IMG/VR virus record: IMGVR_UViG_3300035198_000074
Span: 1-60,264 of that record
Reading direction: 5' to 3' (one strand)
Length of the DNA: 60,264 nucleotides
DNA from: a virus
The notes under the pieces: model-generated
Database searches by the model: none
Seen by the model: only the letters and a program-made list of their open reading frames with translations
What the model was told of the DNA's origin: nothing
Made by a program: the position numbers and the translations under genes
In this document: piece by piece, positions 386-59,728 of the stretch
Numbering within the stretch: position 1 is the first letter of the stretch
Layout of the letters: the number at the start of each line of letters is the position of its first letter

Positions 386-791
386 CATGATGTTCGGAGT
401 TAACAAAATATATTCTATTTTATTGAAAGTGTTAAATTTGACACTTGAAGATATTGGTAGGTTCAGAAACGCTGTTGTTACAAAGAATGATGAAATAGCT
501 ATTTACACCAGATTGGGAGGTGGGAATAGAGAATATTATCAAGAAACTATTGCAAATCTTAGATCTCACCCAAATTATAAATACGATGAAGATGATGATT
601 TTGATTGCACGTATGCAACTTTTTACTTTTCAATACCAAAAGGTGCAGAATGGTTGAAAGTATTTAAAGAAGATTTTGAGCCTAATAAAAAGTGGAAAGA
701 AAAAATTGAAGAAATAAAGACAATGTCGAAGGAACAGATAGAGGAGAATTTTCCAGAAGTTGTAAAGGTGCTTAAAACACTTTTAGAGTGA
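372..791 (+). CDS. Conserved phage hypothetical protein
   Basis: A 139-residue acidic soluble protein. ATG 372 is chosen because GGAGGAG lies 5 bases upstream; an in-frame ATG at 357 has no such site. It contains the block RLGGGNREYY, then LRSHPNY and DDDFDCTYATFYF, a pattern I recall from a family of uncharacterised phage and bacterial proteins that usually open with an MFG motif, as here (MMFGVN). No catalytic motif is evident. It is followed directly by the structured RNA element at 791-885. Confidence 0.7.
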   Translation: MSLYNMMFGVNKIYSILLKVLNLTLEDIGRFRNAVVTKNDEIAIYTRLGGGNREYYQETIANLRSHPNYKYDEDDDFDCTYATFYFSIPKGAEWLKVFKEDFEPNKKWKEKIEEIKTMSKEQIEENFPEVVKVLKTLLE

Positions 792-885
792 GGCAGGTTG
801 GTGGCGTTCTGTGGTCTGATAGCCTAATGAATGTCAGGACGGGAATACCGACTATCAGCGGAGACAAGTCTTGCCCGACCTACCT
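791..885 (+). ncRNA. Predicted pseudoknotted intergenic RNA element, copy 1
   Basis: This fills the gap between two plus-strand genes and ends just before AAAGGAG and ATG 904. Closing stem 791-801 pairs with 875-885 (one C-A mismatch, one G-U). Inside, 816-822 (CTGATAG) pairs with 852-858 (CTATCAG), and 835-840 (CAGGAC) within that loop pairs with 868-873 (GTCTTG, one G-U) beyond it, which makes an H-type pseudoknot. The outer arms match copies at 1265-1367 and 59244-59321. The fold is hand-drawn, not computed. Role unknown; a translational switch or processed leader is possible. Confidence 0.55.
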
Positions 886-903
886 TATTGAAAGGAGAGA
901 AGA

Positions 904-1302
904 ATGAAAAGCGAAGAGATAAATCAAATTATAGCCTCTTGGGATGGAAAAGATAATTTGCCCTATGAATCATTTGGAGGTAAAGCGATACCCTATATAG
1001 GTTGGTTTTGGAGAGATGTTGATTTTGATAGCAATCATTGTTGGCTTGGAATTTTACCTATTTGTCAGGATGTATTAGATCCAAATGACAAAAGACGAGC
1101 TGGTTTTATGCAAAACAATAAATGGGGCTATGAAGAATATATTGTAGAAGGTGAAATTTGGAAAGAAATTAAAAGATTAATTGAAATCGCCGTTCAGAAC
1201 CCAACAAAAGAAAATTTAGAAGCAGTAGATAATTTTATTCAAGAAACATTACCTAAAGAAAAAGAGGCAGGTCGGTGGCGAAAGTCGCCAAGCGTTGAGT
1301 AG
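904..1302 (+). CDS. Hypothetical protein
   Basis: A 132-residue soluble protein with good ribosome site AAAGGAG. It is rich in Trp and acidic residues early on (YIGWFWRDVDF) and helical at the end. I do not recognise the family. Its last codons (AGRWRKSPSVE) are encoded by the 5' arm and first hairpin of the RNA element at 1265-1367, so the C-terminus may have been remodelled when that element arrived. Confidence 0.65.
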   Translation: MKSEEINQIIASWDGKDNLPYESFGGKAIPYIGWFWRDVDFDSNHCWLGILPICQDVLDPNDKRRAGFMQNNKWGYEEYIVEGEIWKEIKRLIEIAVQNPTKENLEAVDNFIQETLPKEKEAGRWRKSPSVE

Positions 1303-1367
1303 CCAGAGCGAGAGGCTTATTAAAAGCTCTACGAGCAGGAGTTAAAGGCAGCCTGCCCGACCTGCCT
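1265..1367 (+). ncRNA. Predicted pseudoknotted intergenic RNA element, copy 2
   Basis: An 11-bp perfect closing stem pairs 1265-1275 (AGGCAGGTCGG) with 1357-1367. Inside are a hairpin 1277-1281/1285-1289 with loop AAG, a stem 1305-1309/1326-1330 (AGAGC/GCTCT, extendable by GT/AC), and 1313-1317 (AGGCT) in its loop pairing with 1350-1354 (AGCCT) beyond it. The outer stem matches copy 1, but the inner stems differ in sequence while keeping the same order. It overlaps the end of the upstream gene and is followed by AAAGGAG and ATG 1390. Confidence 0.55.
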
Positions 1368-1389
1368 AAATGAAAGGAGATGATTTGGA

Positions 1390-1955: not shown

Positions 1956-2864
1956 ATGCAAAAAAAGAAATTTACTGCCCAAGATGTAGATGACCTATGC
2001 CTTCCTACCTCCAAGCAATTGGAGACATTTGACGTTGAAATTGAGTGGGTAGTGGAGGGTATCATCCCCAAACACGCCAATACCATGATTTATTCCGAAG
2101 GGGGGGTTGGCAAGTCTCTTTTAATGCTCCAAATGGCTACAGCAGTAGCCAATGGCGAGGAAATATTTGGCCTAAAAGTGGAAAAAATGCCCGTAATTTA
2201 TATAGATTTCGAGAATCCATTGTCAATTGTCGTGGACAGGGTCCGGAAAATTGGGGGATCATCTAACCTAAAAGTATGGCATCTTGATAATATTCCTCCT
2301 CCTTACCGATTAGACACTGACAAGTGGGAGATTTATCGTGTATTTGACCCAGGACTGTTTATTATTGATTCCCTAAGGTCATCCCATAGGCTTGATGAAA
2401 ACTCTTCTCAGGACGTATCCTTGTTGATGGAGAGGCTAAAATTTATACGGGGAGGCGATTCTACCATCGTCCTAATACATAATGAGAGTAAAACGGGAGA
2501 TTTTAGGGGTAGCTCATCGCTTGCCGACCTATGCGATCAAGTGCTCATGTATGGATGTGTCGAGGAAGTTGGCAGTGAGCGGGAGATTTCAGTCGCCAAT
2601 ACAGTAAGCACAATCAGGAGGCTTGGGATTGGGGGGAAACATAGATTTGATACTCCCATTATTAAATTTCCCCTTTATTTGACGTTAAATGATAATGGAA
2701 AGCTCGAAAAGGCTGAATTTGAGGAAAGGTTATATCAATGTATGGAATTGTTTCAAGAAGGCATTCCCCAGGCTGAAATAGCAAAAATATTTGGAGTTAC
2801 GCAGCAGACTATTTCAAGGTGGCTTCAAAAAATTAAGAAACTACAGGATAAGTGTAAGCTTTAA
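1956..2864 (+). CDS. RepA/RecA-fold ATPase with C-terminal HTH, probable replication helicase
   Basis: A 302-residue AAA_25-type (RepA/DnaB-like) ATPase. Walker A is GGVGKS (residues about 49-54); Walker B-like strands are PVIYIDFEN (about 79-87) and LFIIDSLR; sensor-like VLIHNE follows. The C-terminus (about 265-302) carries a helix-turn-helix, AEIAKIFGVTQQTISRW, suggesting DNA binding. Together this suggests a hexameric helicase or initiator-like ATPase acting at the replication origin. The downstream 450-base gap holds repeats and a long hairpin and is a plausible origin. The start has no strong ribosome site and probably relies on coupling with the gene before it. Confidence 0.75.
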   Translation: MQKKKFTAQDVDDLCLPTSKQLETFDVEIEWVVEGIIPKHANTMIYSEGGVGKSLLMLQMATAVANGEEIFGLKVEKMPVIYIDFENPLSIVVDRVRKIGGSSNLKVWHLDNIPPPYRLDTDKWEIYRVFDPGLFIIDSLRSSHRLDENSSQDVSLLMERLKFIRGGDSTIVLIHNESKTGDFRGSSSLADLCDQVLMYGCVEEVGSEREISVANTVSTIRRLGIGGKHRFDTPIIKFPLYLTLNDNGKLEKAEFEERLYQCMELFQEGIPQAEIAKIFGVTQQTISRWLQKIKKLQDKCKL

Positions 2865-2869
2865 AAAAT

Positions 2870-3330
2870 ATGTCTAAAATGCAATTTTTGGTTAAGCCTT
2901 GCGTCTCACGCCCTAACTTTCAAACAACTACTTTCCCTCAAAGGAAAGTAGTTGTAGTTAGGGTGTGAAGGTAACCCGTGAATTTTTTGTTTTATATATA
3001 TATAGGGGCCGTTGTAACGGCGTAGTTATTGAAATCATTAAGGAATTTAGGCAAGTTTCCAAAGTAGGCATGTGTAGGGTTTAAGCTATGGAAATTATTA
3101 ATGTTTTGGTCAATTTTCAAAAAGGGCTACACTTTGGTTTACACTTTGATGAGAAATTAGCCTACAATAGGACTACACTTAATTTTACAACGCTCAAGTG
3201 CTTGTATTTGTTCATTCTACAACAGGCTACACTTGATTTTACAATTTTAGGGTAAAAATGGCAATTTTATGTGTAAAAGCTGTTGTAAGGCCGTTGTAGC
3301 AAGTGTAAAAAAAGATAAATTTAAGTGAAA
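2870..3330. other. Gene-free region with iteron-like repeats, candidate replication origin
   Basis: About 590 bases separate two genes and no convincing gene is seen. Motif CTACACTT(A/G)ATTTTACAA occurs at 3173 and 3228. Further TACACTT copies lie at 3128 and 3140, and reversed copies (TTGTAG, AGTGTAAA) at 3290-3310. GCCGTTGTAACGGC is an inverted repeat at 3008-3021. A 26-bp stem sits at 2906-2968. Placement next to a RepA-like ATPase with an HTH fits an origin. This is inference; no DnaA-box array was identified. Confidence 0.45.
2906..2968. repeat. Long inverted repeat forming a 26-bp stem
   Basis: 2906-2918 pairs with 2956-2968 (13 bp, one G-T) and 2924-2936 pairs perfectly with 2943-2955 (13 bp). 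The loop is CTCAAA and there is one 5-base bulge. No T-run follows directly, so a simple terminator is less likely than a cruciform or single-strand hairpin, although termination of the RepA-like gene cannot be excluded. Confidence 0.8.
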
Positions 3331-3452
3331 GGAGGTAGGAATTGCATTAAGTTTTTACTGGACATTGTCCGCAGAAAGGAGGCAATTGCGTCTAAATTCA
3401 AAGCGTGTAGAAGGAAGTTTATCAATCCACAAAATTCAAAGGAGGAAGTATT

Positions 3453-4199
3453 ATGGCAAAAGAAGAATATGCAAGTTTTAGTAGTGAGGATGATTTCTCG
3501 GAAGGTGGGGGATTGATTCAGGGAAGGCTTAAATGGAACAATCCCAGGTTTGTGATTTTTGATTACAATGGCGCAGGACCAGAGACACCATCCTTTGCGG
3601 TGGATCTGGAGCCAGAAGATGGGGAAACGGTGACTCAGTATTGGTCATGCGGATCGCTTGACGAATGGATTCCATCAAAGGATGGGAAACGGCTTCTTAA
3701 GGTCGGGAGAATGTCCAAGTTGAGCAAGTCCTGTAAGTATTACCGACTATTGACCTCGCTTTGGGAAGCCAAATTCCCAAAGGATAAAATGGTTGATGAT
3801 GTATCGGTATTGGATGGCATGGTGTGTGATATGGTGCGAGTCCCTGACGTAGAGAGAAAGGGGCTTGAACCAAAAAAGGATAAGAAGTATGCCGCTGATG
3901 TCCTTGTGGTGGATGCCATTGTAACCTTGCCATGGGATCAAGAAGGTAGTAAGTCTGCTGGTGATGATTTGACATCCGAAGCCACTTCCATCATTTTGGA
4001 GATATTGCCAGATTATAAAAATGGCATTGCCAAAATGAAGCTTGCTGGCGAGGTATTCAATCGACTCAAGAAAACCCTTGGCACGGGCAAAGAATCCATG
4101 ACCAAAATTAACTCTATCGTTCAGTTGATCACGGCGAAAGATGAAGAGCTGCTGAAGTTGGGGCCATGGACGTATGAGAAAGGGATAATCAGTCAGTAA
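3453..4199 (+). CDS. Probable phage single-stranded DNA-binding protein
   Basis: A 248-residue protein with strong ribosome site CAAAGGAGGAAGTATT. The beta-rich N-terminus (APSFAVDLE-like block, YWSCGSLDEWIPS, then DGKRLLKVGRMSKLSKS) resembles a phage family commonly encoded just upstream of Sak4-type RecA ATPases, where an SSB is expected. The C-terminal part is helical. Its position between the RepA-like ATPase and a Sak4-like gene supports a recombination or replication role. No acidic SSB tail is present, so the assignment is tentative. Confidence 0.5.
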   Translation: MAKEEYASFSSEDDFSEGGGLIQGRLKWNNPRFVIFDYNGAGPETPSFAVDLEPEDGETVTQYWSCGSLDEWIPSKDGKRLLKVGRMSKLSKSCKYYRLLTSLWEAKFPKDKMVDDVSVLDGMVCDMVRVPDVERKGLEPKKDKKYAADVLVVDAIVTLPWDQEGSKSAGDDLTSEATSIILEILPDYKNGIAKMKLAGEVFNRLKKTLGTGKESMTKINSIVQLITAKDEELLKLGPWTYEKGIISQ

Positions 4200-4210
4200 T
4201 ATAGAATAGG

Positions 4211-4308
4211 GTTGGCGGCCAATAGATTTATCGTTGCCGACAGGTAAACAAGGGTTTATAGGAAGTAAGATCGGCATCTTATAAATTCCTTGGCTATTGG
4301 CCGTCAAC
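4211..4308 (+). ncRNA. Predicted pseudoknotted intergenic RNA element, divergent type
   Basis: A 15-bp closing stem (one G-U) pairs 4211-4225 with 4294-4308. Inside, 4235-4240 (TGCCGA) pairs with 4271-4276. Within that loop 4249-4253 plus 4255-4260 (CAAGG, TTTATA) pair with 4280-4285 plus 4288-4292 (TATAAA, CCTTG), an 11-bp second stem crossing the first. This is the same closing-stem-plus-pseudoknot order as at 791-885, but the sequence is unrelated. It ends 13 bases before ATG 4322. Confidence 0.5.
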
Positions 4309-4321
4309 ACAAGAGGTTATC

Positions 4322-4594
4322 ATGAAAAAATATATTGATAAATGCTTAAAAAATGATCATTGGATTATCAAAAAAGTAGTAGATGAAAAAAGTAACCAAC
4401 TTCTTAAATGGGGCATCCAATCTCGTTCTTCATTTGAATGGCTAACTTATACTACTGAAGAACTTGGAGAATTAGCTAAAGCTATTGGGGAATATGAATA
4501 TCGAAATGGAACTAAAAATGATGTAGTGAAGAAAGCTATTCAGACAGCAACACTTGCCCTTACTATTGCAGAAATGTTTGAAATGGAAGATTAA
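4322..4594 (+). CDS. MazG-like nucleotide pyrophosphohydrolase
   Basis: A 90-residue all-helical protein with EELGELAKAI (residues about 42-51), the metal-binding EExxE-type motif of MazG-like NTP pyrophosphohydrolases, and a conserved second helix IQTATLALTIAEMF. Phage MazG-like enzymes hydrolyse (d)NTPs or alarmones to adjust host nucleotide pools. It is short, as expected for the single-domain form. The ribosome site AGAGG lies directly after the structured element. Confidence 0.65.
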   Translation: MKKYIDKCLKNDHWIIKKVVDEKSNQLLKWGIQSRSSFEWLTYTTEELGELAKAIGEYEYRNGTKNDVVKKAIQTATLALTIAEMFEMED

Positions 4595-4651
4595 ATAACC
4601 AATTACGGGGAGACTACTTAAGAAACATCTAAAAAATAGAAAGGAGTAATT

Positions 4652-5395
4652 ATGGCCATAATCAAAGGATTTGTAAAGGCAAAAAAGGATAGTAGGGCGA
4701 AGCGGTGTCTAATATCAGTCGAGGGCAAGGAAAGGACGGGGAAAACTACCTTTGGATTATCAGCGCCAGGCCCCCTTGTCTATCTTCCTCTCGATCCTGG
4801 TATGGAAGGAGTAATTGATAAGGTAATAGGCACAAAGGAGATTCTGCTGCCAATTAAAGAAAATGGGGACATTGAAACGTTTAACTATCGGGATGCAACT
4901 TCCCAAAAGGATTATGAGAGGCTATGGGAGAAATTTAAAGCTACCTATGAAATGGGGTTGGCGTCTAAAGAGGTTAAGAGTCTTGTGATTGATACAGGAA
5001 CTGAGGCTTGGGAATTAGTGCGATTAGCCAGACTTGGGAAGTTAACGCAGGTTATGCCCCATCATTATGGCCCTGTTAATGCCGAATTCCGAGACCTCAT
5101 TAAACGTGTCTATGAAACGGACAAGAACCTTATTATTATTCATAAAGTCAAGAAGGAATATGTAAATGATAAGGCAACAGGGGAAATGGAGCGTGCAGGA
5201 TTTAATGATATTGGCTATCTTGTTCAGATTAACCTTGTGACATGGTGGAGTCAGGAGGAAGGATTCGGAATGAGCGTAAAGGATTGTCGCCAGAACATGG
5301 ACATAGCAGGGAATAAGTATAATGAACCTATGAATACATTTCCATTTCTGGCTTCGCAAGTCTATCCCGATACCGATCCCGAAAACTGGGAGTAG
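4652..5395 (+). CDS. Sak4-like RecA-fold ATPase (recombination)
   Basis: A 247-residue AAA_24/Sak4-type ATPase. Walker A is GKERTGKTT (about residues 24-32) and Walker B is SLVIDTGTE (about 109-117). The middle shows the family helix around FRDLIKRVYETDKNLIIIHK. These RecA-related proteins promote single-strand annealing or pairing with a partner SSB, which fits the upstream 3453 gene and the nearby ERCC4 nuclease. The Shine-Dalgarno AAAGGAG is well placed. Confidence 0.75.
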   Translation: MAIIKGFVKAKKDSRAKRCLISVEGKERTGKTTFGLSAPGPLVYLPLDPGMEGVIDKVIGTKEILLPIKENGDIETFNYRDATSQKDYERLWEKFKATYEMGLASKEVKSLVIDTGTEAWELVRLARLGKLTQVMPHHYGPVNAEFRDLIKRVYETDKNLIIIHKVKKEYVNDKATGEMERAGFNDIGYLVQINLVTWWSQEEGFGMSVKDCRQNMDIAGNKYNEPMNTFPFLASQVYPDTDPENWE

Positions 5396-5433
5396 TTAGA
5401 CATAGGAAATGATAAGGACGAAAGGAGTAAGTG

Positions 5434-5751
5434 ATGAAGTGTAGCTTCTGTGATATGGAGGCAGTAACTGGTGTTGGGCTTGCCTATTGCGAGGATCATC
5501 TTGGTAACTTTGAGTCTGGCTTCTTTGAGAAAGCGATTATTGGAAAGCTTAATGGTAAGGAGGAGCAAGAGAAGTTCTTTGTATGGGCCTTCGGGAGCGA
5601 AAAGCCTAAGTTGTCGGATTTGCAGAAATGGCATGATAGACTACCACGCAAGGAACGCCCGCATGGAAAACAAAATCAAGGTATTTATATGGAAGAGCAA
5701 GACACTTATATCCAAAGGATTTTGGAAATATATTTAAGGCCAGAAGTATGA
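5434..5751 (+). CDS. Hypothetical protein with N-terminal Cys/His cluster
   Basis: A 105-residue protein starting at ATG 5434 (AAAGGAG 6 bases upstream; a GTG lies 3 bases earlier). The first 25 residues contain CSFC and YCEDH, a possible zinc-binding knuckle. The rest is helical and charged. Its stop overlaps the start of the ERCC4-type nuclease gene (ATGA), implying coupled translation and perhaps joint function in DNA processing. Confidence 0.6.
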   Translation: MKCSFCDMEAVTGVGLAYCEDHLGNFESGFFEKAIIGKLNGKEEQEKFFVWAFGSEKPKLSDLQKWHDRLPRKERPHGKQNQGIYMEEQDTYIQRILEIYLRPEV

Positions 5752-6482
5752 TATATGTTGATGATAGAGTAGGGAGTAAGGAACTTGCTGACTTGATAGA
5801 GGACAGTATCTTAGTGCACCTCGACTATGCCGATATTGCATTTGAGGGAAATGGGCCAAATGGAAAAGTCCAGATTGGTATTGAGCGAAAAACATGGGGA
5901 GACCTCATTAACTCCTTCAGGACAGGAAGACTCGTAGGACATCAGGTACAGGGGCTATTGGATAATTACCATAAAGTTTATCTGGTGTGTGAAGGCATTA
6001 TACGTGAGAACCAGAAGACAGGCGAGATAAATGAATGGAAGCATGGTAAATGGAAGAAGGTGGATTATTCTACATCAGAATCGGCAAGGAATAGATTTAA
6101 TTATTCGTCTATATGGAAACATTTGATTACACTGGAGAGTAAAGCAGGCATAGAATTGCGTTCTTCTTGGAATATGCAGGAGACTGCCCGGATGGCGGAA
6201 ATATTGTATGCCTGGTGGAGTAAGCCATGGGAAGCACATAAAAGTCATCTACAGCATTATAGCAGTATTCAGACTGCATTATTGCGACCCGATAAACCAT
6301 CCTGGCCAGTGCAGTTTGCCGCAAACCTGCCTGGATTTGGGTGGGATAGGGCGGTTAAGGCAGAAGCATATTTTGAAACTGTTCCCCGGATGATAGGTGC
6401 AAGTGAGCAAGAATGGAGAAAGGTAGAAGGGATAGGGAAGGTGTTGGCGAAAATGGCATGGGAAGCGTTGCATAAAGCATAA
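5748..6482 (+). CDS. ERCC4-domain structure-specific nuclease with HhH
   Basis: A 244-residue protein. The N-terminus (VDDRVGSKEL) and ERKTWGDL (about residues 47-54) match the XPF/Mus81 catalytic signature ERKxxxD, with an upstream Asp pair and a downstream strand VYLVCEG. The C-terminus (about 190-244: LPGFGWDRA and VEGIGKVLAKM) shows two helix-hairpin-helix motifs that bind branched DNA. The role is probably cleavage of flaps or Holliday-type intermediates during phage recombination, alongside Sak4 and the SSB candidate. Confidence 0.8.
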   Translation: MIYVDDRVGSKELADLIEDSILVHLDYADIAFEGNGPNGKVQIGIERKTWGDLINSFRTGRLVGHQVQGLLDNYHKVYLVCEGIIRENQKTGEINEWKHGKWKKVDYSTSESARNRFNYSSIWKHLITLESKAGIELRSSWNMQETARMAEILYAWWSKPWEAHKSHLQHYSSIQTALLRPDKPSWPVQFAANLPGFGWDRAVKAEAYFETVPRMIGASEQEWRKVEGIGKVLAKMAWEALHKA

Positions 6483-6500
6483 TATATAGGGAGGAAAACA

Positions 6501-6800
6501 ATGCAAGGTTATTATATCCATTTAGAGAACGGTGAATGGCAAAAGGTTAAGGGTCATAGAATTAAAATTGAAGGCTTTGAAGACCTTGATCTATTTTGCC
6601 ATAAAGAGGATAAGTATTATCATATTTCGGAAGGAAAGACAGGAATGGAAATTATTCCTGAATTTGGATTTTTAAAGATTGCTAAAGAATGTGCTCAACA
6701 TGCTCTAATAAAAGCAAAGAAAAAAGGTGTATTGGATAAGGCAATAAGCAGGTCCATCAAACAATATGGGTTATCTCCAAGATGGAGGAAAAAAGTCTAA
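6501..6800 (+). CDS. Hypothetical protein
   Basis: A 99-residue basic protein with ribosome site GGGAGGAAAACA. The N-terminal half looks strand-rich (YYIHLENGEWQKV), and the C-terminal half is helical and Lys/Arg-rich (ALIKAKKKG, SPRWRKKV), compatible with nucleic-acid binding. Family not recognised. Confidence 0.6.
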   Translation: MQGYYIHLENGEWQKVKGHRIKIEGFEDLDLFCHKEDKYYHISEGKTGMEIIPEFGFLKIAKECAQHALIKAKKKGVLDKAISRSIKQYGLSPRWRKKV

Positions 6801-6822
6801 TAAATTCACAGGAGGTGACAAT

Positions 6823-6936
6823 ATGAGAAATTGGAATTGGGGTCTGATAATTATGGTCGGTTGTTTACTGGCATTTTGGGGTTGGGTAGCTACTCAGTTA
6901 ATTCCTTTTGCCTTAAAAATTAGCAGGATGTTCTAA
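6823..6936 (+). CDS. Very small membrane protein
   Basis: A 37-residue protein starting 6 bases after a full GGAGGT ribosome site. It is mostly one hydrophobic helix (LIIMVGCLLAFWGWVATQL), ending in a basic tail. Probably inner-membrane; function unknown. Confidence 0.55.
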   Translation: MRNWNWGLIIMVGCLLAFWGWVATQLIPFALKISRMF

Positions 6937-6951
6937 TGAAAGGAGTTTGCC

Positions 6952-7191
6952 ATGACTAATTTCGATGAAGGTAGTTACAAAAAGTGTCCATGTTGCGGTG
7001 AATTATACTTTGTGCCAGAAGGGCCCTTATGCGATTGCTGGGAATGCTCAAACTGTGGGGAGTGGTTCTCAGATTTTGACATGCTTGCCAATAGAAATGA
7101 GTGGCTATGTTTGTATTGCGAAGATGAGAGATATCAGGAAGAAATGAAAGTTGCCAGTAGTGATTGGGTCGATAAACTTTGCGACTGTTAA
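6952..7191 (+). CDS. Cysteine-rich zinc protein
   Basis: A 79-residue protein with CPCC, CDCWECSNC, CLYC and a C-terminal CDC: ten Cys in all, enough for two or three zinc sites. It is very acidic between knuckles. Ribosome site AAAGGAG. It probably acts in nucleic-acid or protein binding; no family assigned. Confidence 0.65.
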   Translation: MTNFDEGSYKKCPCCGELYFVPEGPLCDCWECSNCGEWFSDFDMLANRNEWLCLYCEDERYQEEMKVASSDWVDKLCDC

Positions 7192-7216
7192 AACAACCTA
7201 AGAGGAGGTAAGTAAA

Positions 7217-7381
7217 ATGAAGCCCAAAAGGAAGTATGTGGTGCTTGAGGTGGAGACAAATTTAACTAATAAAGAACTAAAAAATAGAGAATTATGGAAA
7301 CAGACGTTGGAGGAAGAACCTACATTTTACAGAACTACATTGATTCAGATTCAAGTAAATACTGTAAAGCCTATAAAATAA
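7217..7381 (+). CDS. Small hypothetical protein
   Basis: A 54-residue protein preceded by GAGGAGGTAAGTAAA. It reads MKPKRKYVVLEVE, a charged helix, then a strand-like TFYRTTLIQIQVN, suggesting a compact alpha/beta fold. Family not recognised. Confidence 0.55.
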   Translation: MKPKRKYVVLEVETNLTNKELKNRELWKQTLEEEPTFYRTTLIQIQVNTVKPIK

Positions 7382-7394
7382 GATGGAGACAACA

Positions 7395-7700
7395 ATGAAT
7401 GTAGATGCATTTAAGAAACAATATGGAGAACAATATCTCCACGAATTATTCAAGCATGACATAATTGCAGAGACTATCCAGGCCATTAACCGAATCTATA
7501 TTCCCTATACTCTTAAATGGATTATTCAAAAGAAGCCAAAGGTATGGAGACAGATTAGGGAGATTGAGGAAGGAATAAATGTAGCGGTGATGTGTGAAGA
7601 TGAAGAATATTTGAAGGTAGAATTAGACCTTTATTATCATGCATGGGGAGATGCCATTATGGAGTTTGATGCAGGGGGAAGGAGATACGTGCCATTTTAG
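7395..7700 (+). CDS. Hypothetical protein
   Basis: A 101-residue protein. ATG 7395 is preferred because GGAG lies 5-6 bases upstream; an earlier ATG at 7383 has none. It is helical in the middle and rich in Tyr and Trp (YHAWGDAIMEF near the end). Family not recognised. Confidence 0.55.
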   Translation: MNVDAFKKQYGEQYLHELFKHDIIAETIQAINRIYIPYTLKWIIQKKPKVWRQIREIEEGINVAVMCEDEEYLKVELDLYYHAWGDAIMEFDAGGRRYVPF

Positions 7701-7710
7701 GCGAGATTAT

Positions 7711-7812
7711 ATGAACCATTCACTAATGTTGGCAATTATATTAACAATAGTTACACTTTGGTTGGGAGTAGTCTTGGCTTGGTGGATATATATACTATTC
7801 ATGCTGTCGTAA
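7711..7812 (+). CDS. Very small membrane peptide at the end of the plus-strand block
   Basis: A 33-residue peptide made almost wholly of one hydrophobic helix with several Trp (VTLWLGVVLAWWIYILF). The ribosome site is weak (GGCGAG). It is the last plus-strand gene before the convergent minus-strand block; only a dozen bases separate its stop from the opposing stop. Confidence 0.4.
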   Translation: MNHSLMLAIILTIVTLWLGVVLAWWIYILFMLS

Positions 7813-7823
7813 CTGGTATCTTC

Positions 7824-8123
7824 TTACGGGAGACTTTCTTCTTCGGCCTGATTATTCGCCAGATGAACCTTGGCCATCGCATGGCTATCGCACGTGTAGC
7901 AATTACACTTCCCGCAATATAGGAGAGGGAAAACGGAAGGTAGAAGAGGTCCACCACAAGTAGGGCAAGAGCCAGAAGTCCCAGAGATTCGTCCAGCCCA
8001 TCGAGTATCATGGAGATATTCCCTCGTTTGCTGAGGGTAGTGAAAGTCCCCAACCTCACGAGGTAGGTTTCCATGAACTTGGAAGAGAAAATGATCAGCA
8101 TCCAGAGGAATATCACTTGTCAT
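7824..8123 (-). CDS. Zinc-ribbon protein (alternative overlapping frame exists)
   Basis: A 99-residue frame whose C-terminal half has CPTCGGPL, then YCGKCNCYTC, a convincing zinc ribbon. Third-position composition is closer to neighbouring genes than that of the overlapping frame. Against it, AAAGG abuts ATG 8123. A second frame (GTG 8116 to 7799, 105 residues, two possible membrane helices, basic tail) has AAAGG 7 bases before its start. Which frame is used, or whether both are, cannot be settled here. Confidence 0.45.
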   Translation of the reverse strand: MTSDIPLDADHFLFQVHGNLPREVGDFHYPQQTREYLHDTRWAGRISGTSGSCPTCGGPLLPSVFPLLYCGKCNCYTCDSHAMAKVHLANNQAEEESLP

Positions 8124-8167
8124 CCTTTACTTATTCCCTTTCTTAATCATCTATTATGCATCACTGC

Positions 8168-8506
8168 CTAATTTACTATGCATCGCTTCTCCCACTGGAG
8201 AATGACATTCTTAAATGTCTTGGGTTCAATGTAAATTGCCTTAACAGGCTTGTCTAAAGCAATGCACATTCCCAGATCGAACATTGTGCCAAATGAGCGC
8301 TGATCCCAGAACAGATGCACTTCATCAGCCCATTGTACAAGACTTTTATTATATAGGCAGATACCAAGCTCGACATCGCCCTCACCATAACCATCATCAT
8401 CATCGAAAGCGGGGAGGCGAACCTCATGTCCTTTTGCTTCTAATTCTCTTTTATGCATTAACATGCGAACCAAGTAACTTGTAGTGCCTATAATAGCTAC
8501 TTTCAT
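8168..8506 (-). CDS. Nucleoside 2-deoxyribosyltransferase-like protein
   Basis: A 112-residue Rossmann-like protein. It opens MKVAIIGTTSY and continues HKRELEAKGHEVRLPAFDD, LGICLYNKSLVQWADEVHLFWD and GTMFDLGMCIALDKPVKAIY, the pattern of short proteins related to nucleoside 2-deoxyribosyltransferases. The family cleaves N-glycosidic bonds of (deoxy)nucleosides or nucleotides, so a nucleotide-salvage or signal-degrading role is possible. Ribosome site AAGGAG. Substrate unknown. Confidence 0.65.
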   Translation of the reverse strand: MKVAIIGTTSYLVRMLMHKRELEAKGHEVRLPAFDDDDGYGEGDVELGICLYNKSLVQWADEVHLFWDQRSFGTMFDLGMCIALDKPVKAIYIEPKTFKNVILQWEKRCIVN

Positions 8507-8522
8507 ATAACTATCTCCTTTC

Positions 8523-8726
8523 TTAAGGCTTCATAAATACCAATTCCTGTATTGGCTTTACTCCCCATTGCACTTTTAATTGACGTAAATCTAATTCAGC
8601 ATCTTGGATATCTTCTTTATGGCGTTGTATCTCGTTCCAAAGGAAATTGCAAAGAGCTTGAGCTTCATCCTTGTTTTGGCAGTGTTTAATAGCTACACCT
8701 CGGCCTTCCACTGACTTCAATGCCAT
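8523..8726 (-). CDS. Small hypothetical protein
   Basis: A 67-residue helical protein with ribosome site GGGGAGAAATAGATA. The middle (NKDEAQALCNFLWNEIQRHKEDIQDAELDLRQLK) looks like a coiled coil. It lies between the deoxyribosyltransferase-like gene and another small helical gene. Function unknown. Confidence 0.6.
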   Translation of the reverse strand: MALKSVEGRGVAIKHCQNKDEAQALCNFLWNEIQRHKEDIQDAELDLRQLKVQWGVKPIQELVFMKP

Positions 8727-8729
8727 TAT

Positions 8730-8969
8730 CTATTTCTCCCCTTCATGGTATTTGCCATCTGTCATTGATCTCTCGTCTATCTCGATTTTGTTAAGCGGAG
8801 CAAAATCAGAGCCAAGTATCCAGCACGTAAGGCGAAGAGCAAAATAAGAAGAGTCAATATTGTATGAATTGACATGATTCTCGAATGCTTCAATCGCCTT
8901 CTCCAACGCCTCGAATACAATTTGCTTATCGGATTTTTCTTCTTCTATTTTTTTATTAACTTTCCCCAT
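8730..8969 (-). CDS. Small hypothetical protein
   Basis: A 79-residue charged helical protein whose start overlaps the end of the metallophosphoesterase gene by 25 bases. No good ribosome site is seen, so coupling is likely. No known domain. Confidence 0.5.
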   Translation of the reverse strand: MGKVNKKIEEEKSDKQIVFEALEKAIEAFENHVNSYNIDSSYFALRLTCWILGSDFAPLNKIEIDERSMTDGKYHEGEK

Positions 8970-9889
8970 GGTGTATTCTCGCTAAAGAGAATCGGCTTAT
9001 TGCCATCAAAAATGACCACAAATCCTGTAACCCATTCATTATGACTGGTATCCCAGATGTTCTTATATGGGACTTTCCGCTTGTCCACCAAGCACCCAGG
9101 AGCAATTAAATGATGGATACCATCTGGGGCATATTCATGTCCCCACCAATGCCCATGACCAAATATCAGACTTTTGTGATGTTTGGCAAATAACCTAATA
9201 GAAGACAAGCCCCCAATCTTCACCACATTCTTGGGGTGACTCACCCTCCATTCTTTCCCTATATCGCAATACCTATAAGAGGATATTTTAATTTGTTTCT
9301 TGGCAGTCAGTAATTGCCAAATATCATCAAATGCTGTTGCCTTTCCCTGATCATATAATAATTTCCACATACGAATATCATGACTTCCGAGAAAGAAACG
9401 AACATCACTGAAGCCCGATACCAGTGCATTCATTAAGACATTGCTATACTCAACCTCCTTGTTAAAATCTACCATGTCTTCCTTTGATACCCACCACGTG
9501 GAAAACTGATCCTGATTCCAGAAATCGCCAGCATGGAGAAAATTCTTAATCCCATAGTGATTGGCTACCTTGAGCATCAAGTTAATGATTTCTTCATTTG
9601 TGAATGGGGAATGGGCATCAGCCGCAACGATCGCCTCATCCCAATTAAGCTTCCAGTAACCAGCCCAGTAATCTCTTGTAGCGAAAGGTTCTACAAATCG
9701 CTGATTAAGAGAATTGGGATGACCAATACCCAAAGCATGTTGAATTTCCGATAAGGAATAGCGTACATCATGATAGGATAATCGCTTTATTGATAGATTA
9801 TGCTTTTGGGCTAATTTGGAAACAGTGGCTCTATCAATATTTAATCGCTTACTTATTTCTGGCGATGTAAGAAAATCGTTTTTGATCAC
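8945..9889 (-). CDS. Metallophosphoesterase with N-terminal HTH
   Basis: A 314-residue protein. Residues about 8-50 look like a helix-turn-helix (SPEISKRLNIDRATVSKLAQK). The phosphoesterase core follows: ADAHSP (DxH motif, about 90), HAGDFWN (GD motif), FLGSHD (usually GNHD/E), a late VSHPKN and GHGHWWGHEY. These are the metal ligands of calcineurin-like phosphatases/nucleases. The Asn-to-Ser change in the GNHD motif is notable. It starts at GTG and overlaps the upstream coiled-coil gene. Possible roles are DNA nuclease or phosphatase; the DNA-binding module favours DNA. Confidence 0.7.
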   Translation of the reverse strand: MIKNDFLTSPEISKRLNIDRATVSKLAQKHNLSIKRLSYHDVRYSLSEIQHALGIGHPNSLNQRFVEPFATRDYWAGYWKLNWDEAIVAADAHSPFTNEEIINLMLKVANHYGIKNFLHAGDFWNQDQFSTWWVSKEDMVDFNKEVEYSNVLMNALVSGFSDVRFFLGSHDIRMWKLLYDQGKATAFDDIWQLLTAKKQIKISSYRYCDIGKEWRVSHPKNVVKIGGLSSIRLFAKHHKSLIFGHGHWWGHEYAPDGIHHLIAPGCLVDKRKVPYKNIWDTSHNEWVTGFVVIFDGNKPILFSENTPWGKLIKK

Positions 9890-23859: not shown

Positions 23860-25091
23860 GATGTCTTAATAGGCTCCACAAGCATACTCATGTTATCAAT
23901 ATCAAAATCTGCACCATCATTATTCATGATTCGGATTGTGAAATAGTATCCCTTCAAACCAGTAGGCATCTTAAGCCGCTCTTGCGCAATCACGCTACCT
24001 GTTATTGTAGATGCTTTACTTACTTCTTGAGTTACATCTTCATCAGGGTAGACGTAGACAGTAAGAGTGCCTGTTGCCCTAAACATAAAGGTTATATCCC
24101 GCAAATATTTGCGCAAGCTTGTCCCGAAGTCAGTAGAGCCAGTCTTGAGCTTGGCAGATATAGTCGTTCCATTATCATCTGTCCCGCCTATCTCATAAAT
24201 ACCAGTCGGAGTAGCCCCCAATATTCTTCCGTTAAAATTAGCAATGGAGTTAAAGTTGAAGCCACTGTAGGTAGAGATTGCCTTATTCTTTATGTTGATT
24301 ACGATTCCAGTATATACCTCAGCAGGAGCTTCGCTGGGGCTGGCGCTTGGGGAAGCGGAAGGGCTGGCAGACGGAGACATGGAAGGACTCATTGAAGGCG
24401 AGGGAGAAGGACTTTCCGATGGGCTTCGTGAAGGAGAGGCTGTGCCACTTGCGCTTGGGCTACGGCTTGGGCTTGCGCTGGGAGATTTACTGGGGCTTTC
24501 CGAAGGCGACATGCTTGGGCTGGGAGAAGGAGAAATTGATGGACTCTTACTGGGACTCATACTTGGCGAAATACTTGGGCTTTCAGATGGCGATTCACTT
24601 GGGCTTCGACTCTTGCTTGCAGATGGTGATAAGCTTGCGGAAGGTGATAAGCTTGGGGATTCGCTGGGCGACATACTGGGGCTTCTGCTGGGGCTTAGCG
24701 ATGCTGATGGCGACAAACTGGGACTTGCACTGGGACTCATGCTTGGACTTTTGCTTGGTGATTCACTGGGACTAATACTCGCTGATGGGGATAAGCTTGG
24801 GCTTGCAGATGGCGATCTGCTTGGACTGGCAGAGGGAGAAGCACTTGGGCTTATACTGGGACTCATAGATGCAGAGGGAGATAAACTTGGACTCTTACTG
24901 GGGCTTACTGATGGAGAAGCGCTGGGACTTCTGCTTGGACTGACAGAAGCCGATGGAGACAAACTTGGGGAGGCGCTTGGACTCTGGCTTGCAGACGGAG
25001 AGAGACTCGGTGAGACACTGGGGCTCATCGAAGGGCTTAAACTTGGAGAAGCGCTTGGGCTTGCTGATGGGCTTTCACTTGCACTTGCCAT
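23856..25091 (-). CDS. Ser-Pro-Ser-X repeat tail protein
   Basis: A 411-residue protein from ATG 25091 (GGGAGGTAGTAAT). Residues about 5-255 are an uninterrupted (S-P-S-X)n array in which X varies (A, L, M, V, E, K, R, I, P). The last ~155 residues form a beta-rich domain ending in a segment with YYFTIRIMN and NMSMLVEP, as in phage tail proteins adjacent to propeller-like proteins. The repeat is probably an extended stalk. Its first residues, MASASESPS, match the capsid-side protein at 42331-42774. Confidence 0.65.
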   Translation of the reverse strand: MASASESPSASPSASPSLSPSMSPSVSPSLSPSASQSPSASPSLSPSASVSPSRSPSASPSVSPSKSPSLSPSASMSPSISPSASPSASPSRSPSASPSLSPSASISPSESPSKSPSMSPSASPSLSPSASLSPSRSPSMSPSESPSLSPSASLSPSASKSRSPSESPSESPSISPSMSPSKSPSISPSPSPSMSPSESPSKSPSASPSRSPSASGTASPSRSPSESPSPSPSMSPSMSPSASPSASPSASPSEAPAEVYTGIVINIKNKAISTYSGFNFNSIANFNGRILGATPTGIYEIGGTDDNGTTISAKLKTGSTDFGTSLRKYLRDITFMFRATGTLTVYVYPDEDVTQEVSKASTITGSVIAQERLKMPTGLKGYYFTIRIMNNDGADFDIDNMSMLVEPIKTS

Positions 25092-25095
25092 ATTA

Positions 25096-25986
25096 CTACC
25101 TCCCAATAGCTAAAAATTGCTGAAATGGGGAATTTCTGATAATAGCAGAACCAGACGTGAGTCCAGTCTTTTGGAATAGTCCTTCCTGCACCTTGACTAC
25201 AACCCCCTGATTATAGCCTGCATATACGTAACCATCTTCCGCAAGCCAGTAAGCTACCCTTGCTGCTGGTGCGCCTTTGGGGACCAATACCGCAGACATG
25301 CCTTCAATAGCAGGATAATCTAACTTTGGAGTTTCTACCCACTCTGATATTGGACTCCTGCCCGCTTCAAAATAGACTTTTTCACTATCGCTTACATAGA
25401 TGCCATTATCCACAGCCTTTACCATGGTAATCCTGCTTTTGAAAGAAATGGCATTTTTTCTTGTATCCATACGAGTAGGGATAGTGGCATCTGAGAAGAA
25501 TAGGTTGGTATTGTTAGCTGCATAAAGTCTGCTATTATACCATTCAAGTATCTGACCACCCACCATTCTTACTTTATAATCTTCTGTTGGGGTCGGAAAT
25601 GGATAGGGCAATCCTGTTCTCACATCAATATAGCCAATGATACTCATATTGGAGAAGTAGACGTAATTGCCGTTAAATGTGTAGGCAAAATCGTCATCAC
25701 CACTCACATCCTCAATCAGGATAGTGGAAGTATTGTCGGCATTGAGTCGTTTGAAAGTTGTGCCTTGCAGGTAGAGACAAATGTCGTCATTTGCCCACAG
25801 GCTTCTTATGTTAGTGCCTGATACTATTGCACTCCCGAAGCCATCTCGTAAGTGAGGCTTGCCCATATCATCAATATCCACATTCTCAATCTCGTAGAAG
25901 TAGGCTCCATCCTTGCGAAGTCTGTTGGTTGCAAGGTCAGATACATTATCAATTCCATAGACTCGTGTAATTTTATAATCAGGCAT
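25096..25986 (-). CDS. Tail stabilisation/structural protein
   Basis: A 296-residue protein. Start ATG 25986 is chosen because AAAGGAGG lies 8 bases upstream; a longer frame begins inside the previous gene. It starts MPDYKITRVYGIDNVSD and contains ENVDIDDMGKPHLRDGF, VYFSNMSIIGYIDV and LYAANNTNLFFSD, repeated blade-like beta units. I recall this pattern in podovirus tail proteins adjacent to the neck and fibres. Confidence 0.65.
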   Translation of the reverse strand: MPDYKITRVYGIDNVSDLATNRLRKDGAYFYEIENVDIDDMGKPHLRDGFGSAIVSGTNIRSLWANDDICLYLQGTTFKRLNADNTSTILIEDVSGDDDFAYTFNGNYVYFSNMSIIGYIDVRTGLPYPFPTPTEDYKVRMVGGQILEWYNSRLYAANNTNLFFSDATIPTRMDTRKNAISFKSRITMVKAVDNGIYVSDSEKVYFEAGRSPISEWVETPKLDYPAIEGMSAVLVPKGAPAARVAYWLAEDGYVYAGYNQGVVVKVQEGLFQKTGLTSGSAIIRNSPFQQFLAIGR

Positions 25987-27079
25987 CGAGGAAGCCTCCT
26001 TTATACCCATAGTATGACGCATTTGAATAACTTGTGCCATTATTAATTCTAATGTCTCTTACCCACCCAGCATAGGGAGGTTCCGTTATTGCTTCTGATG
26101 GCGATGGGGAAGGACTCATAGATGGACTGACGGATAGACTTAAGCTTGGGCTTAATGAAGGAGAAATGCTTGGCGAAGCGCTCGGCGAAACACTGGGCGA
26201 TAGACTTGGACTAATACTTGGACTCTTAGACGGCGATCCGCTTGGAGAAATACTTGGACTTAATGATGCACTGGGGCTGAGTGAAGGACTCACAGATGGA
26301 GACGCAGAAGGTGACTCAGACGCAGAAAGTGACGCTGAGGGACTTAGCGAAGGACTCATGCTCGGCGATATAGAAGGCGAAGCCGAAGGGGAAACACTTG
26401 GTGAAAGCGATGCAGAACCTATTGCCACACTTGGGCTTGCAGATGGAGACTCGCTTGGACTTATTGACGGAGATAGACTCGGAGAAATAGATGGAGATAA
26501 AGACGGAGACACCGATGCTGATGGACTCAAGCTTGGGCTTTCACTTGGAGAAATAGAAGGAGAAATGCTTAGACTAATGGATGGGCTTGCGGATGGAGAA
26601 ACTGAAGCTGATGGAGATAAGGAAGGACTTGCCGAGGGCGACATAGATGGTGACAAGCTTGGTGACTGCGAGGGCGATGCTGAAGGAGAAAGCGATGGCG
26701 ATTCGGAAGGTGACTCACTGGGACTCATTGAGAGCGACATACTTGGAGAAACTGATGCTGAAGGACTTAATGAAGGACTTTCAGATGGAGACTTACTGGC
26801 ACTTAGCGAAGGAGATGCGGATGGCGACAAACTCGCACTCTCAGAAGGTGATTTAGAAGGTGATAGACTCGGACTTTCTGATGGCGAGGGTGAAGGGCTA
26901 ACAGATGGAGATATTGATGGGCTAAGGCTTGCACTTGGCGAAAGCGATGGACTGGCACTTGGCGATTCGGATGGACTTACCGATGGAGATAAGCTTGCCG
27001 AAGGGGCACTAATAATCACCTCATCGCCAGCATTACTGATAACTTGATTGCCTAAATTGTCTATGACATATAAAGCCAT
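25979..27079 (-). CDS. Ser-Pro-Ser-X repeat fibre protein
   Basis: A 366-residue protein. A short N-terminal module (MALYVIDNLGNQVISNAGDE) is followed by about 300 residues of (S-P-S-X)n and a 30-residue C-terminal tail (GWVRDIRINNGTSY and YYGY). That tail recurs at the end of the 27899-30496 protein. The N-terminal module resembles the 37-residue gene at 27100-27213. It probably forms an extended fibre or stalk attached by its ends. Confidence 0.65.
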   Translation of the reverse strand: MALYVIDNLGNQVISNAGDEVIISAPSASLSPSVSPSESPSASPSLSPSASLSPSISPSVSPSPSPSESPSLSPSKSPSESASLSPSASPSLSASKSPSESPSLSPSASVSPSMSLSMSPSESPSESPSLSPSASPSQSPSLSPSMSPSASPSLSPSASVSPSASPSISLSISPSISPSESPSLSPSASVSPSLSPSISPSLSPSISPSESPSASPSVAIGSASLSPSVSPSASPSISPSMSPSLSPSASLSASESPSASPSVSPSLSPSASLSPSISPSGSPSKSPSISPSLSPSVSPSASPSISPSLSPSLSLSVSPSMSPSPSPSEAITEPPYAGWVRDIRINNGTSYSNASYYGYKGGFLDA

Positions 27080-27099
27080 AATTCTCTTTTATTTACCTT

Positions 27100-27213
27100 T
27101 CAATCATTTCCCATACCTGACCCACAATCAATGGCCATACCCTTTTCCGAATTCCCTACATTGTCAATCACATCGTTGGTCAAGTTATCTATCACTTGTC
27201 TTGGAATAGCCAT
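27100..27213 (-). CDS. Short relative of the fibre N-terminal module
   Basis: A 37-residue protein, MAIPRQVIDNLTNDVIDNVGN onwards in content, matching the spacing of the VIDNL and VI.N.G motifs of the neighbouring SPSX protein. It may be a truncated duplicate or a free-standing attachment peptide. The ribosome site is a distant GAGGA. A 16-codon frame with a perfect AGGAGGAG site lies just before it (27219-27269). Confidence 0.4.
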   Translation of the reverse strand: MAIPRQVIDNLTNDVIDNVGNSEKGMAIDCGSGMGND

Positions 27214-27334
27214 TTACTCTAATTCCTCAATGCTCGACTTGTCTCGTCCCATGAATAGGAATAAGCCATTTTTCTCCTCCTATAATTGTTTTCTCATAAC
27301 AATTCTATTATGAACTTAAATATTGTTCTCATTT

Positions 27335-27883
27335 TCAATACCATTCTACCCAATAATTTAGAGATGCAGAACCAGAAGTGCCAATCTTATAATAGTTATT
27401 TGGTAAAACCATAAATGCCAACGTAAAGGCAGTACTATTATAAGACACTCCAGCAACTATAGTTGTTGGGGGATTACTGGCGTCTGTATAAGCATACTGC
27501 CAACCAGAGGTAGATACCAAAGTAACCACTACAAATATTGTTTTACCTGTTGTGTTCTGATACACTGTTCCAATTGCACGTGAAGCAGTAACCACATTTT
27601 GGGTAGAAAATGGAGCAGCTGTTATTGTTACGTCAACCTCATCATCAGTGGCATCATCTGCAACTGTTAGGGTAATGTTAGTTCCTTCAACTAAGTTAAG
27701 CCTTTTTCTTGTTCCAACGTTCGCTCCGCTATTCTTTCTTACCGTAACTTTCTGAGCATCAGCTAAAAGTCCTGACAATCCTGCTACACTAATCTCATCA
27801 CTTCCTCCATCCTGATGGGAAGTTGAATGAGCTTTTGGACTATGAAGATCGGCATCAGTCAAATCTTTATGATATACAGTCAT
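27335..27883 (-). CDS. Tail fibre protein
   Basis: A 182-residue protein with ribosome site GGGAGGTAATAACAA. Residues about 15-45 (HSTSHQDGGSDEISVAGLSG) and the following KNSGANVGTRKRLNLVEG match the collagen-like/adhesin-linker blocks common in phage tail fibres. The rest is beta-rich and ends in aromatic residues (YWVEWY). Probably a trimeric fibre segment. Confidence 0.65.
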   Translation of the reverse strand: MTVYHKDLTDADLHSPKAHSTSHQDGGSDEISVAGLSGLLADAQKVTVRKNSGANVGTRKRLNLVEGTNITLTVADDATDDEVDVTITAAPFSTQNVVTASRAIGTVYQNTTGKTIFVVVTLVSTSGWQYAYTDASNPPTTIVAGVSYNSTAFTLAFMVLPNNYYKIGTSGSASLNYWVEWY

Positions 27884-27898
27884 TTGTTATTACCTCCC

Positions 27899-42330: not shown

Positions 42331-42774
42331 TTAGAATCCTATTGCCATTACCTCCAATGTGGTAGATGATAAATATGCACCTTCACTCACCTCTGTTCCA
42401 TAGGTAGTGAAAACTCTAATGGTATTGGCCGATCTATCCCATTCATAATTTATTCCCGCTCCATTAGCTTCAAGAATGACTACTGCGTCAATGTTACTCA
42501 TCCCCAATTCTCCAGCGGTTAATGGAACCCCGCCAGATGGATAGGATGCTGGCGCACCCCCAAAAGCAATCGTAGCAAATGTCAACCTTTTCCTGCCTAT
42601 TCTCGATATTTTACCATGAAGAGTGTAAGTAACGTCTCCAGCAGGGATAGGTGATGGCGAAGCGCTGGGGCTTGCGCTGGGGCTGGATGAGGGAGACCTG
42701 CTTGGGCTCACACTTGGTGATGCACTGGGTGATGCACTGGGGCTAATGCTTGGGCTTTCTGATGCTGATGCCAT
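42331..42774 (-). CDS. Ser-Pro-Ser-X protein beside the capsid genes
   Basis: A 147-residue protein from ATG 42774 (AAGGAGGAAGGAAAT). Residues 1-42 are (S-P-S-X) repeats with the same MASASESPS opening as the tail protein at 23856-25091. The rest (VTYTLHGKISRIGRKRLTFAT, AFGGAPASYPSGGVPLT, YEWDRSANTIRVFTTYG) matches a beta-rich phage head protein pattern that I recall from genes next to capsid genes. It suggests surface-exposed repeats on the head. Confidence 0.65.
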   Translation of the reverse strand: MASASESPSISPSASPSASPSVSPSRSPSSSPSASPSASPSPIPAGDVTYTLHGKISRIGRKRLTFATIAFGGAPASYPSGGVPLTAGELGMSNIDAVVILEANGAGINYEWDRSANTIRVFTTYGTEVSEGAYLSSTTLEVMAIGF

Positions 42775-42855
42775 ATTTCCTTCCTCCTTATTCCCCTTGG
42801 TATTTGTGGGCAATTACGTCCCACGTTAGACTTCGGAGATAAATTTTAGTTGTGT

Positions 42856-50212: not shown

Positions 50213-50253
50213 GTTATTTCTACCTTAACATACTTCGCCAGTTTTTCAAGGTA

Positions 50254-50630: not shown

Positions 50631-50639
50631 GCATGGCGT

Positions 50640-58274: not shown

Positions 58275-58286
58275 GGAGATAGCAAA

Positions 58287-58978: not shown

Positions 58979-59258
58979 TAGAGAATATGAATTGATTAAT
59001 TGTATCAAGGAGATGGTTAACCAATTTGCCTATCAGTTGGATAATCCTCCAAGGATAACCACTGGTGGCTTAAGTGCCTTAGAGACGGCTTTCGATATTT
59101 TGGGATATTCAGATCCAGAGCCAGCGCCTGAGAGAGGATGTCAGTATGGGAAATGTCAAAGGTTTGCTACCTGTGGCGTACCAACGAAAAGCGGCTACAA
59201 GTTTGTGTGTAATAAGCACTTTAGAAAACTGTATAAGAGGTATGCAGGTCGGAGGTGA
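58971..59258 (+). CDS. Zinc-binding hypothetical protein
   Basis: A 95-residue protein from ATG 58971 (GGAGG 9 bases upstream, inside the short leader frame). It has a helical N-terminus and GCQYGKCQRFATCGVP with FVCNKHF, a Cys/His cluster. Its last codons (YAGRR) are the 5' arm of the RNA element at 59244. Confidence 0.55.
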   Translation: MRDREYELINCIKEMVNQFAYQLDNPPRITTGGLSALETAFDILGYSDPEPAPERGCQYGKCQRFATCGVPTKSGYKFVCNKHFRKLYKRYAGRR

Positions 59259-59321
59259 AAGCCATTCTCCGTCATTAAATGCAGGAACAACGATATCAGT
59301 GGAGAATCCTGCCCGACCTAT
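59244..59321 (+). ncRNA. Predicted pseudoknotted intergenic RNA element, copy 3
   Basis: 59246-59252 (AGGTCGG) pairs with 59313-59319 (extended by a C-A mismatch and a G-U). 59264-59270 (ATTCTCC) pairs perfectly with 59301-59307, and 59281-59285 (GCAGG) within that loop pairs with 59308-59312 (CCTGC). Arms match copies 1 and 2; inner stems are new sequences with the same order. Followed by AAGGAG and ATG 59342. Shorter remnants of the 3' arm lie at 59521-59536 and 59689-59712. Confidence 0.55.
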
Positions 59322-59341
59322 CCTATTGGAAGGAGAAAAAG

Positions 59342-59512: not shown

Positions 59513-59552
59513 GAAGAAATTCTGCCCGACCTGCCTTAAATGAAAGAAAAAA

Positions 59553-59675
59553 ATGTTTGAAGAATTATTTACTGATAAAGAATTGGAAATTATAGATGAG
59601 ATAACTCAAGATATGGAGCCAGAGACAAAGCTGGCAACCGTATTTTTAATTGCTATTAAGGAAGGTAGGCTCTGA
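59553..59675 (+). CDS. Small helical protein
   Basis: A 40-residue acidic helical protein (MFEELFTDKELEIIDEITQDM). It follows a remnant of the RNA-element 3' arm (TGCCCGACCTGCC) at 59522. The ribosome site (GAAAG) is poor. Function unknown. Confidence 0.45.
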   Translation: MFEELFTDKELEIIDEITQDMEPETKLATVFLIAIKEGRL

Positions 59676-59728
59676 GGAGGAGTTGGTGGCTATCCTGCCA
59701 GTCCTGCCTTAATGAAAGGAGGTAATTT

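Follow-up and report, generated by a model that had tools for sequence, protein, structure and literature searches.

The RNase III sites of phage T7 are repeated intercistronic hairpins that lie just ahead of ribosome sites among small early genes. Start-associated repeats have also been described from the cluster K mycobacteriophages, where a short element, the so-called SAS, is found at the ribosome site of a subset of small, non-structural genes, always in one orientation (PMC3203893; PMC11373665; PMC12699233). The SAS has a 13-bp consensus, GGGATAGGAGCCC, located at the start codon, and about half of the SAS copies are preceded by an ESAS, an upstream imperfect inverted repeat with 17-nt arms around a variable spacer of 4-13 (PMC3203893). 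The ESAS carries SigA-like -35/-10 hexamers (PMC11373665). In T4-type phages the promoter early stem-loop (PeSL) is, as outlined in PMC4503421, an early promoter followed by a stem-loop/terminator, and it behaves as a mobile intergenic cassette.

Here we describe five related leader elements (E1 to E5) from the IMG/VR virus record IMGVR_UViG_3300035198_000074, all 60,264 bp of which are referred to as the window. The last 127 bases (60138-60264) duplicate bases 203-329 (repeat family D11), and the sequence therefore closes as a circle of ~59,935 bp (~59.9 kb). Bases 1-202 may represent a second route into gene 203 from upstream, as would arise from the assembly graph of a population with two junctions; this assembly ‘lariat’ (1-202 versus 60138-60264) suggests population variation precisely at the start of gene 203. 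Judging from its terminase- and connector-like proteins, the virus is a tailed phage. The elements belong to a series of very small plus-strand genes spanning the artificial sequence end, in a variable, early-type phage region, and all five lie on the plus strand within ~2.06 kb of the circle. Their features are as follows.

792..801, plus strand: 5′ arm of E1, GGCAGGTTGG, then TGGCG, immediately 3′ of the gene 372-791 stop codon (sequence; weight matrix, 21.7 bits).
807..863, plus strand: possible stem B of E1, UUCUGU (807-812) with GCGGAG (858-863), at a position homologous to stem B of E3 and dependent on the 5′-half alignment.
835..873, plus strand: possible stem C of E1, CAGGAC (835-840) or the adjacent CGGGA with (G)UCUUG (868-873), crossing stem B.
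870..897, plus strand: 3′ unit of E1, CTTGCCCGACCTACCTTATTGAAAGGAG, comprising the 3′ arm and the Shine-Dalgarno of gene 904-1302 (sequence, family D12, weight matrix).
1266..1275, plus strand: 5′ arm of E2, GGCAGGTCGG, within the final 37 nt of gene 904-1302 (weight matrix, 24.2 bits).
1313..1354, plus strand: nested alternative of E2, AGGCU/AGCCU around the hairpin AGCUCU/GGAGUU, uncrossed (nested p = 0.029).
1352..1379, plus strand: 3′ unit of E2, CCTGCCCGACCTGCCTAAATGAAAGGAG, comprising the 3′ arm and the Shine-Dalgarno of gene 1390-1569 (sequence, family D12, weight matrix).
59243..59252, plus strand: 5′ arm of E3, TGCAGGTCGG, within the end of gene 58971-59258 (weight matrix, 21.4 bits).
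59265..59312, plus strand: possible pseudoknot of E3, UUCUCCG/UGGAGAA (59265-59271 with 59300-59306) crossed by GCAGGA/UCCUGC (59281-59286 with 59307-59312) (p = 0.0025 against dinucleotide shuffles).
59308..59335, plus strand: 3′ unit of E3, CCTGCCCGACCTATCCTATTGGAAGGAG, comprising the 3′ arm and the Shine-Dalgarno of gene 59342-59512 (sequence, family D12, weight matrix).
59521..59547, plus strand: E4, a 3′ unit lacking a clear 5′ arm, ahead of gene 59553-59675 (24.2 bits; family D12).
59660..59721, plus strand: E5, a degenerate 5′ arm GGAAGGTAGG (59660-59669), a short spacer and a 3′ unit CCTGCCAGTCCTGCCTTAATGAAAGGAG from 59694, ahead of gene 59729-59929.

A weight matrix derived from E1-E3 was scanned over the window for 3′ and 5′ units. 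The 27-nt 3′ unit (YCYTGCCCGACCTRCC...TGAAAGGAG) has exactly five copies, at 870, 1352, 59308, 59521 and 59694, which score from 36.3 to 24.2 bits as against 14.7 bits for the best non-member and stand well above chance; repeat finding groups the identical five members as the 38-nt family D12. Clear copies of the 5′ unit GGCAGGTYGGTGGCG occur at three sites (792, 1266 and 59243), in which the arm reads GGCAGGTYGG, and a degenerate fourth copy lies in E5 at 59660. The consensus arm pair is GGCAGGTYGG/CCGACCTRCC, and the spacer between the arms measures ~30, 60, 73 and 81 nt across copies. A Shine-Dalgarno follows ~10 nt past the 3′ arms of E1, E2 and E3, leading to the ATG at 904, 1390 and 59342, respectively; in each of the five 3′ units an ATG is placed 17-23 nt beyond the arm, E4 having a poor Shine-Dalgarno. 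The sequence-only reading that preceded this analysis had recognized three such elements before ribosome sites, with shared outer arms, and these are confirmed at 792-801/875-884 (E1), 1266-1275/1357-1366 (E2) and 59243-59252/59313-59322 (E3), in a family that proves larger than was listed (five 3′ units and three clear 5′ arms), E4 at 59521 and E5 at 59694 having been absent from its coordinates. It was also right that E1, E2 and E3 each run into the Shine-Dalgarno of the next plus-strand gene, and that two of them overlap the end of the preceding gene, as the 5′ arms of E2 and E3 lie inside it and that of E1 begins directly after the stop codon. The proteins encoded downstream (from 904, 1390, 59342, 59553 and 59729) are mutually unrelated and not paralogous, so it is the leader that spread by copying, not the genes.

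The inner sequences had been described as unrelated among the three elements, and here the alignments differ. Under three scoring schemes the E1 and E3 interiors align at p ≤ 0.0015; the E2 and E5 interiors align at p of 0.001-0.006, the E5 interior matching the 3′ half of E2; E1/E2 and E2/E3 yield no interior alignment. By these alignments the family is divided into two subfamilies, E1/E3 and E2/E5, a division of some consequence, since a test for retained pairing requires copies that are homologous.

The closing stem formed by the arms is fully paired in E2 only (10/10), with 9/10 positions pairing in E1, one of them as G-U and the remaining one a C-A mismatch, and 8/10 in E3, and in E5 the in-register pairing is lost, 8 bp being possible in a shifted register. 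Across the homologous register of E1, E2, E3 and E5, 82.5% of cells pair, and randomly redealt 3′ letters pair as well as the real arms. The arm changes are not compensatory, the count of pairs changed on both sides being zero; arm conservation alone therefore does not demonstrate selection on RNA pairing, and the same pattern would be expected from common descent alone or from a role at the DNA level. The mismatches of ESAS are likewise not compensated, and Pope et al. drew the same conclusion on RNA pairing there (PMC3203893). Folded as whole elements against shuffles, E2 is far more stable (z = -4.9), E3 (-1.8) and E5 (-1.9) moderately so, and E1 no better (-0.8). The Shine-Dalgarno lies outside the closing stem in every copy, and simple sequestration is thus not the mechanism.

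The organisation matches that of SAS/ESAS very closely: a start-associated repeat with an imperfect inverted repeat and a variable spacer upstream at some copies (here five 3′ units with three clear and one degenerate 5′ arm), one orientation, association with non-structural genes, uncompensated mismatches, and a stop codon of the previous gene that can fall inside the element. Unlike SAS/ESAS, the window has no match to GGGATAGGAGCCC at up to 2 mismatches, the arms are of 10 nt and the spacer is of about 30-81 nt; unlike ESAS, the elements have no plus-strand -35/-10 match, the best loose matches reaching 7-8/12. With PeSLs, as far as their published outline goes, the elements share the layout of a repeated intergenic stem-loop cassette amid shuffled small early genes, whereas no sigma70-like promoter (in a search for the sigma70 type only) and no U-tract after the stems are found here; intrinsic terminators are absent from E1-E5. 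In comparison with the T7 RNase III sites, the present family is defined by conserved arm sequence and has a long, variable and partly coding spacer.

The elements are probably, with a good deal of doubt left, copies of a lineage-specific leader cassette duplicated within this genome, SAS/ESAS-like in organisation, unrelated to it in sequence, and with a function that we infer. One ancestral intercistronic leader, made up of a 5′ arm, a variable spacer, a 3′ arm and a Shine-Dalgarno, would have been copied before at least five unrelated small genes, and the copies would since have diverged into the E1/E3 and E2/E5 subfamilies and the truncated E4. We infer that the cassette is transcribed and that in the mRNA its arms can close a hairpin of 7-11 bp beside the ribosome site, the Shine-Dalgarno staying free; its role may be to provide a shared context for translation initiation at these genes and/or a hairpin between the cistrons for protection or processing. 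The cassette is supported by the finding that strong hairpins of unrelated sequence abut the Shine-Dalgarno at other genes of the phage too, so that hairpins in leaders seem to be usual in this genome. Against it stand the uncompensated arm substitutions, which fail to demonstrate that the closing stem is under selection, and E1, which as a whole is no more stable than its shuffles.

A tentative alternative, which we hold to be possible at most, is that the repeated leader serves as a homology cassette for gene shuffling, with recombination at the leader swapping small genes between phages in a PeSL-like manner. The copies do flank unrelated ORFans, and at the start of gene 203 the assembly offers a second path from upstream (bases 1-202). 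L032, the nearest relative found, matches window positions 2028-9484 in pieces with 77-86% nucleotide identity; it begins just short of the element region, and the genes that immediately precede gene 1956, which it shares, are different ones. PeSLs, however, consist of an early promoter with a stem-loop/terminator, and no promoter- or terminator-like plus-strand match occurs inside the elements; nor was a mosaic relative bearing the cassette found.

Exact and degenerate pattern searches revealed no second carrier in IMG/VR and no copy in 84,980 GTDB species genomes, with only coding-sequence or chance matches in either, and blastn of the element regions against sequenced phages and plasmids gave nothing meaningful. 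In other viruses with homologues of gene 904 (L006), gene 372 (L024) and gene 1956 (L025/L032), no element is found nearby, in line with the leader-cassette reading, and for the terminase relative L007, as for these, the element is absent nearby or the region is not reached. As far as the searched collections indicate, the cassette is lineage-specific; this is a real repeat family of which no earlier record was found. No homologue was found in these collections that could settle whether the E1/E3 pairing is retained.

That question concerns a further reading, a selected pseudoknotted RNA domain between the arms (regulatory, protein-binding or self-cleaving), at least in E1/E3, in which stem B would use the conserved GGAG and stem C the conserved YCYUG beside the 3′ arm. 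Interiors were compared with dinucleotide shuffles for crossed stems, both of at least 5 bp, and for the best crossed energy. The crossed topology put forward earlier gains nothing from its occurrence, since crossing stems of at least 5 bp are present in 95% (E1), 96% (E2) and 43% (E3) of the shuffles; crossed stems also occur in 56-85% of same-length real windows of this genome. By energy it holds up in E3, which is exceptional (p = 0.0025), E1 being marginal (p = 0.07) and E2 ordinary (p = 0.60); the summed crossed energy (p = 0.01) is carried by E3. Nor does the claim that all three elements retain pairing with changed sequence, in the same A-B-C-B′-C′-A′ order, survive as worded. The arm substitutions are uncompensated, as described above. 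The strongest inner stem of E1 (7 bp, CTGATAG/CTATCAG) has its 3′ strand kept in E3 (TATCAG) and its partner missing, and the conserved strands of E2 (GGAG, GCCUG) pair best nested (p = 0.029), with no crossed solution.

What speaks for a pseudoknot in E1/E3 is an alternative pair of stems at homologous positions: B, UUCUGU/GCGGAG in E1 and CUCCGU/GUGGAG in E3, and C, CGGGA/UCUUG in E1 and CAGGA/UCCUG in E3, each of which pairs in both copies. At all five differences in B and C the bases still form a standard or wobble pair (p = 0.015 by column shuffling, MAFFT alignment), structures constrained to the conserved strands give p = 0.07 (E1) and p = 0.001 (E3), and CAGGA recurs inside the interiors of E1, E2 and E3. 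On the other side, no pair of B or C is changed on both sides, the stems and the alignment were picked after inspecting the sequences, and stem B depends on the alignment: with other alignments of the 5′ half, which is poorly conserved, p ranges from 0.003 to 0.12 and stem B is lost in some, and hand alignment of CAGGA on CAGGA eliminates the E1/E3 crossed pair entirely. Stem C was also tried as a family-wide helix and rejected (p = 0.02 in E3, not significant in the other copies). Rfam 15 yields no covariance-model match above the gathering threshold in the window and, with E relaxed to 5, no meaningful hit to the element regions, so that the pseudoknot has no Rfam match and a self-cleaving ribozyme was set aside. 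A pseudoknot in the E1/E3 subfamily is possible and mildly favoured, and a family-wide one is not supported; as an explanation of the elements the pseudoknotted domain is doubtful. It is less probable still that they represent a new phage 5′-leader RNA class, with a closing stem around an H-type pseudoknot just upstream of the ribosome site acting as a portable regulatory or processing domain before several genes, and with E2/E5 refolded to a nested variant on the same conserved GGAG and YCYUG strands.

The arms might instead be an inverted repeat recognised as DNA by a phage or host protein, RNA pairing being irrelevant. Their sequence is conserved and their mismatches are uncompensated, which is the argument made by Pope et al. 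for ESAS (PMC3203893), yet a spacer of ~30, 60, 73 or 81 nt varies unusually for a dimer site, the arms are joined to the Shine-Dalgarno, always in one orientation, a clear 5′ arm is missing from at least one copy and the arm of another is degenerate, and no promoter-like site is present; we consider protein-binding sites improbable. Similarly unlikely are neutral, functionless leftovers of local duplications: all copies lie within 2.06 kb, their divergence is uncompensated and E4 and E5 are degraded, but conservation persists in the arms and start region, whereas between the subfamilies the interiors are no longer recognisably similar, and every copy is directly ahead of a gene start (E4 with its poor Shine-Dalgarno). 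Integron attC sites, which conserve the core RYYYAAC/GTTRRRY at their arm ends, were rejected, the arms being GGCAGGTYGG/CCGACCTRCC and E2 and E3 lacking AAC/GTT. REP/REPIN elements are dispersed palindromes with a RAYT transposase; the copies here are confined to 2 kb, and no transposase occurs among the part of the proteins scanned with Pfam.

Other structures and repeats were encountered in the window. The leader of gene 53420 (53305-53402) has a closing stem CUCCCCGUA/UACGGGGAG that encloses a 12-bp hairpin with a terminator-like U7 behind it; with a folding z of -6.0 it is the strongest structured RNA seen here, it has no Rfam match, and its GATAGG and CCTATC could also pair across the hairpin. 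Hairpins at 52009-52036, 55180-55212 and 59929-59968, unrelated in sequence to E1-E5, are placed just ahead of the Shine-Dalgarno of genes 52056, 55241 and 59987, and a tandem atgcat/gcata repeat (58200-58275) is immediately 5′ of the Shine-Dalgarno of gene 58287. Long imperfect repeats with a 12-nt step (GATGGAGA..., CTTGGGCT...), open on both strands, occur in late genes at 24325-28476 (and 42656-42781). AT-rich repeats with a 27-nt step (AAATTTT...CCAGG) occupy 50226-50640, where divergently oriented gene blocks leave a gap close to the GC-skew switch; this is possibly an origin-like region. Arm-like sequence is also seen in an unrelated virus contig (L003, 797-871), as an inverted repeat CAGGTCGGGCAA...TTGCCCGACCTACC that has no leader context.

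In the cluster K mycobacteriophages, the start-associated repeats and their inverted arms have lacked an explanation since 2011. The same layout, of apparently independent origin in an unrelated phage, suggests a general phage strategy in which one common leader is used for unrelated small genes, and it provides a second system for asking in which capacity such arms work: RNA, DNA site or recombination target.
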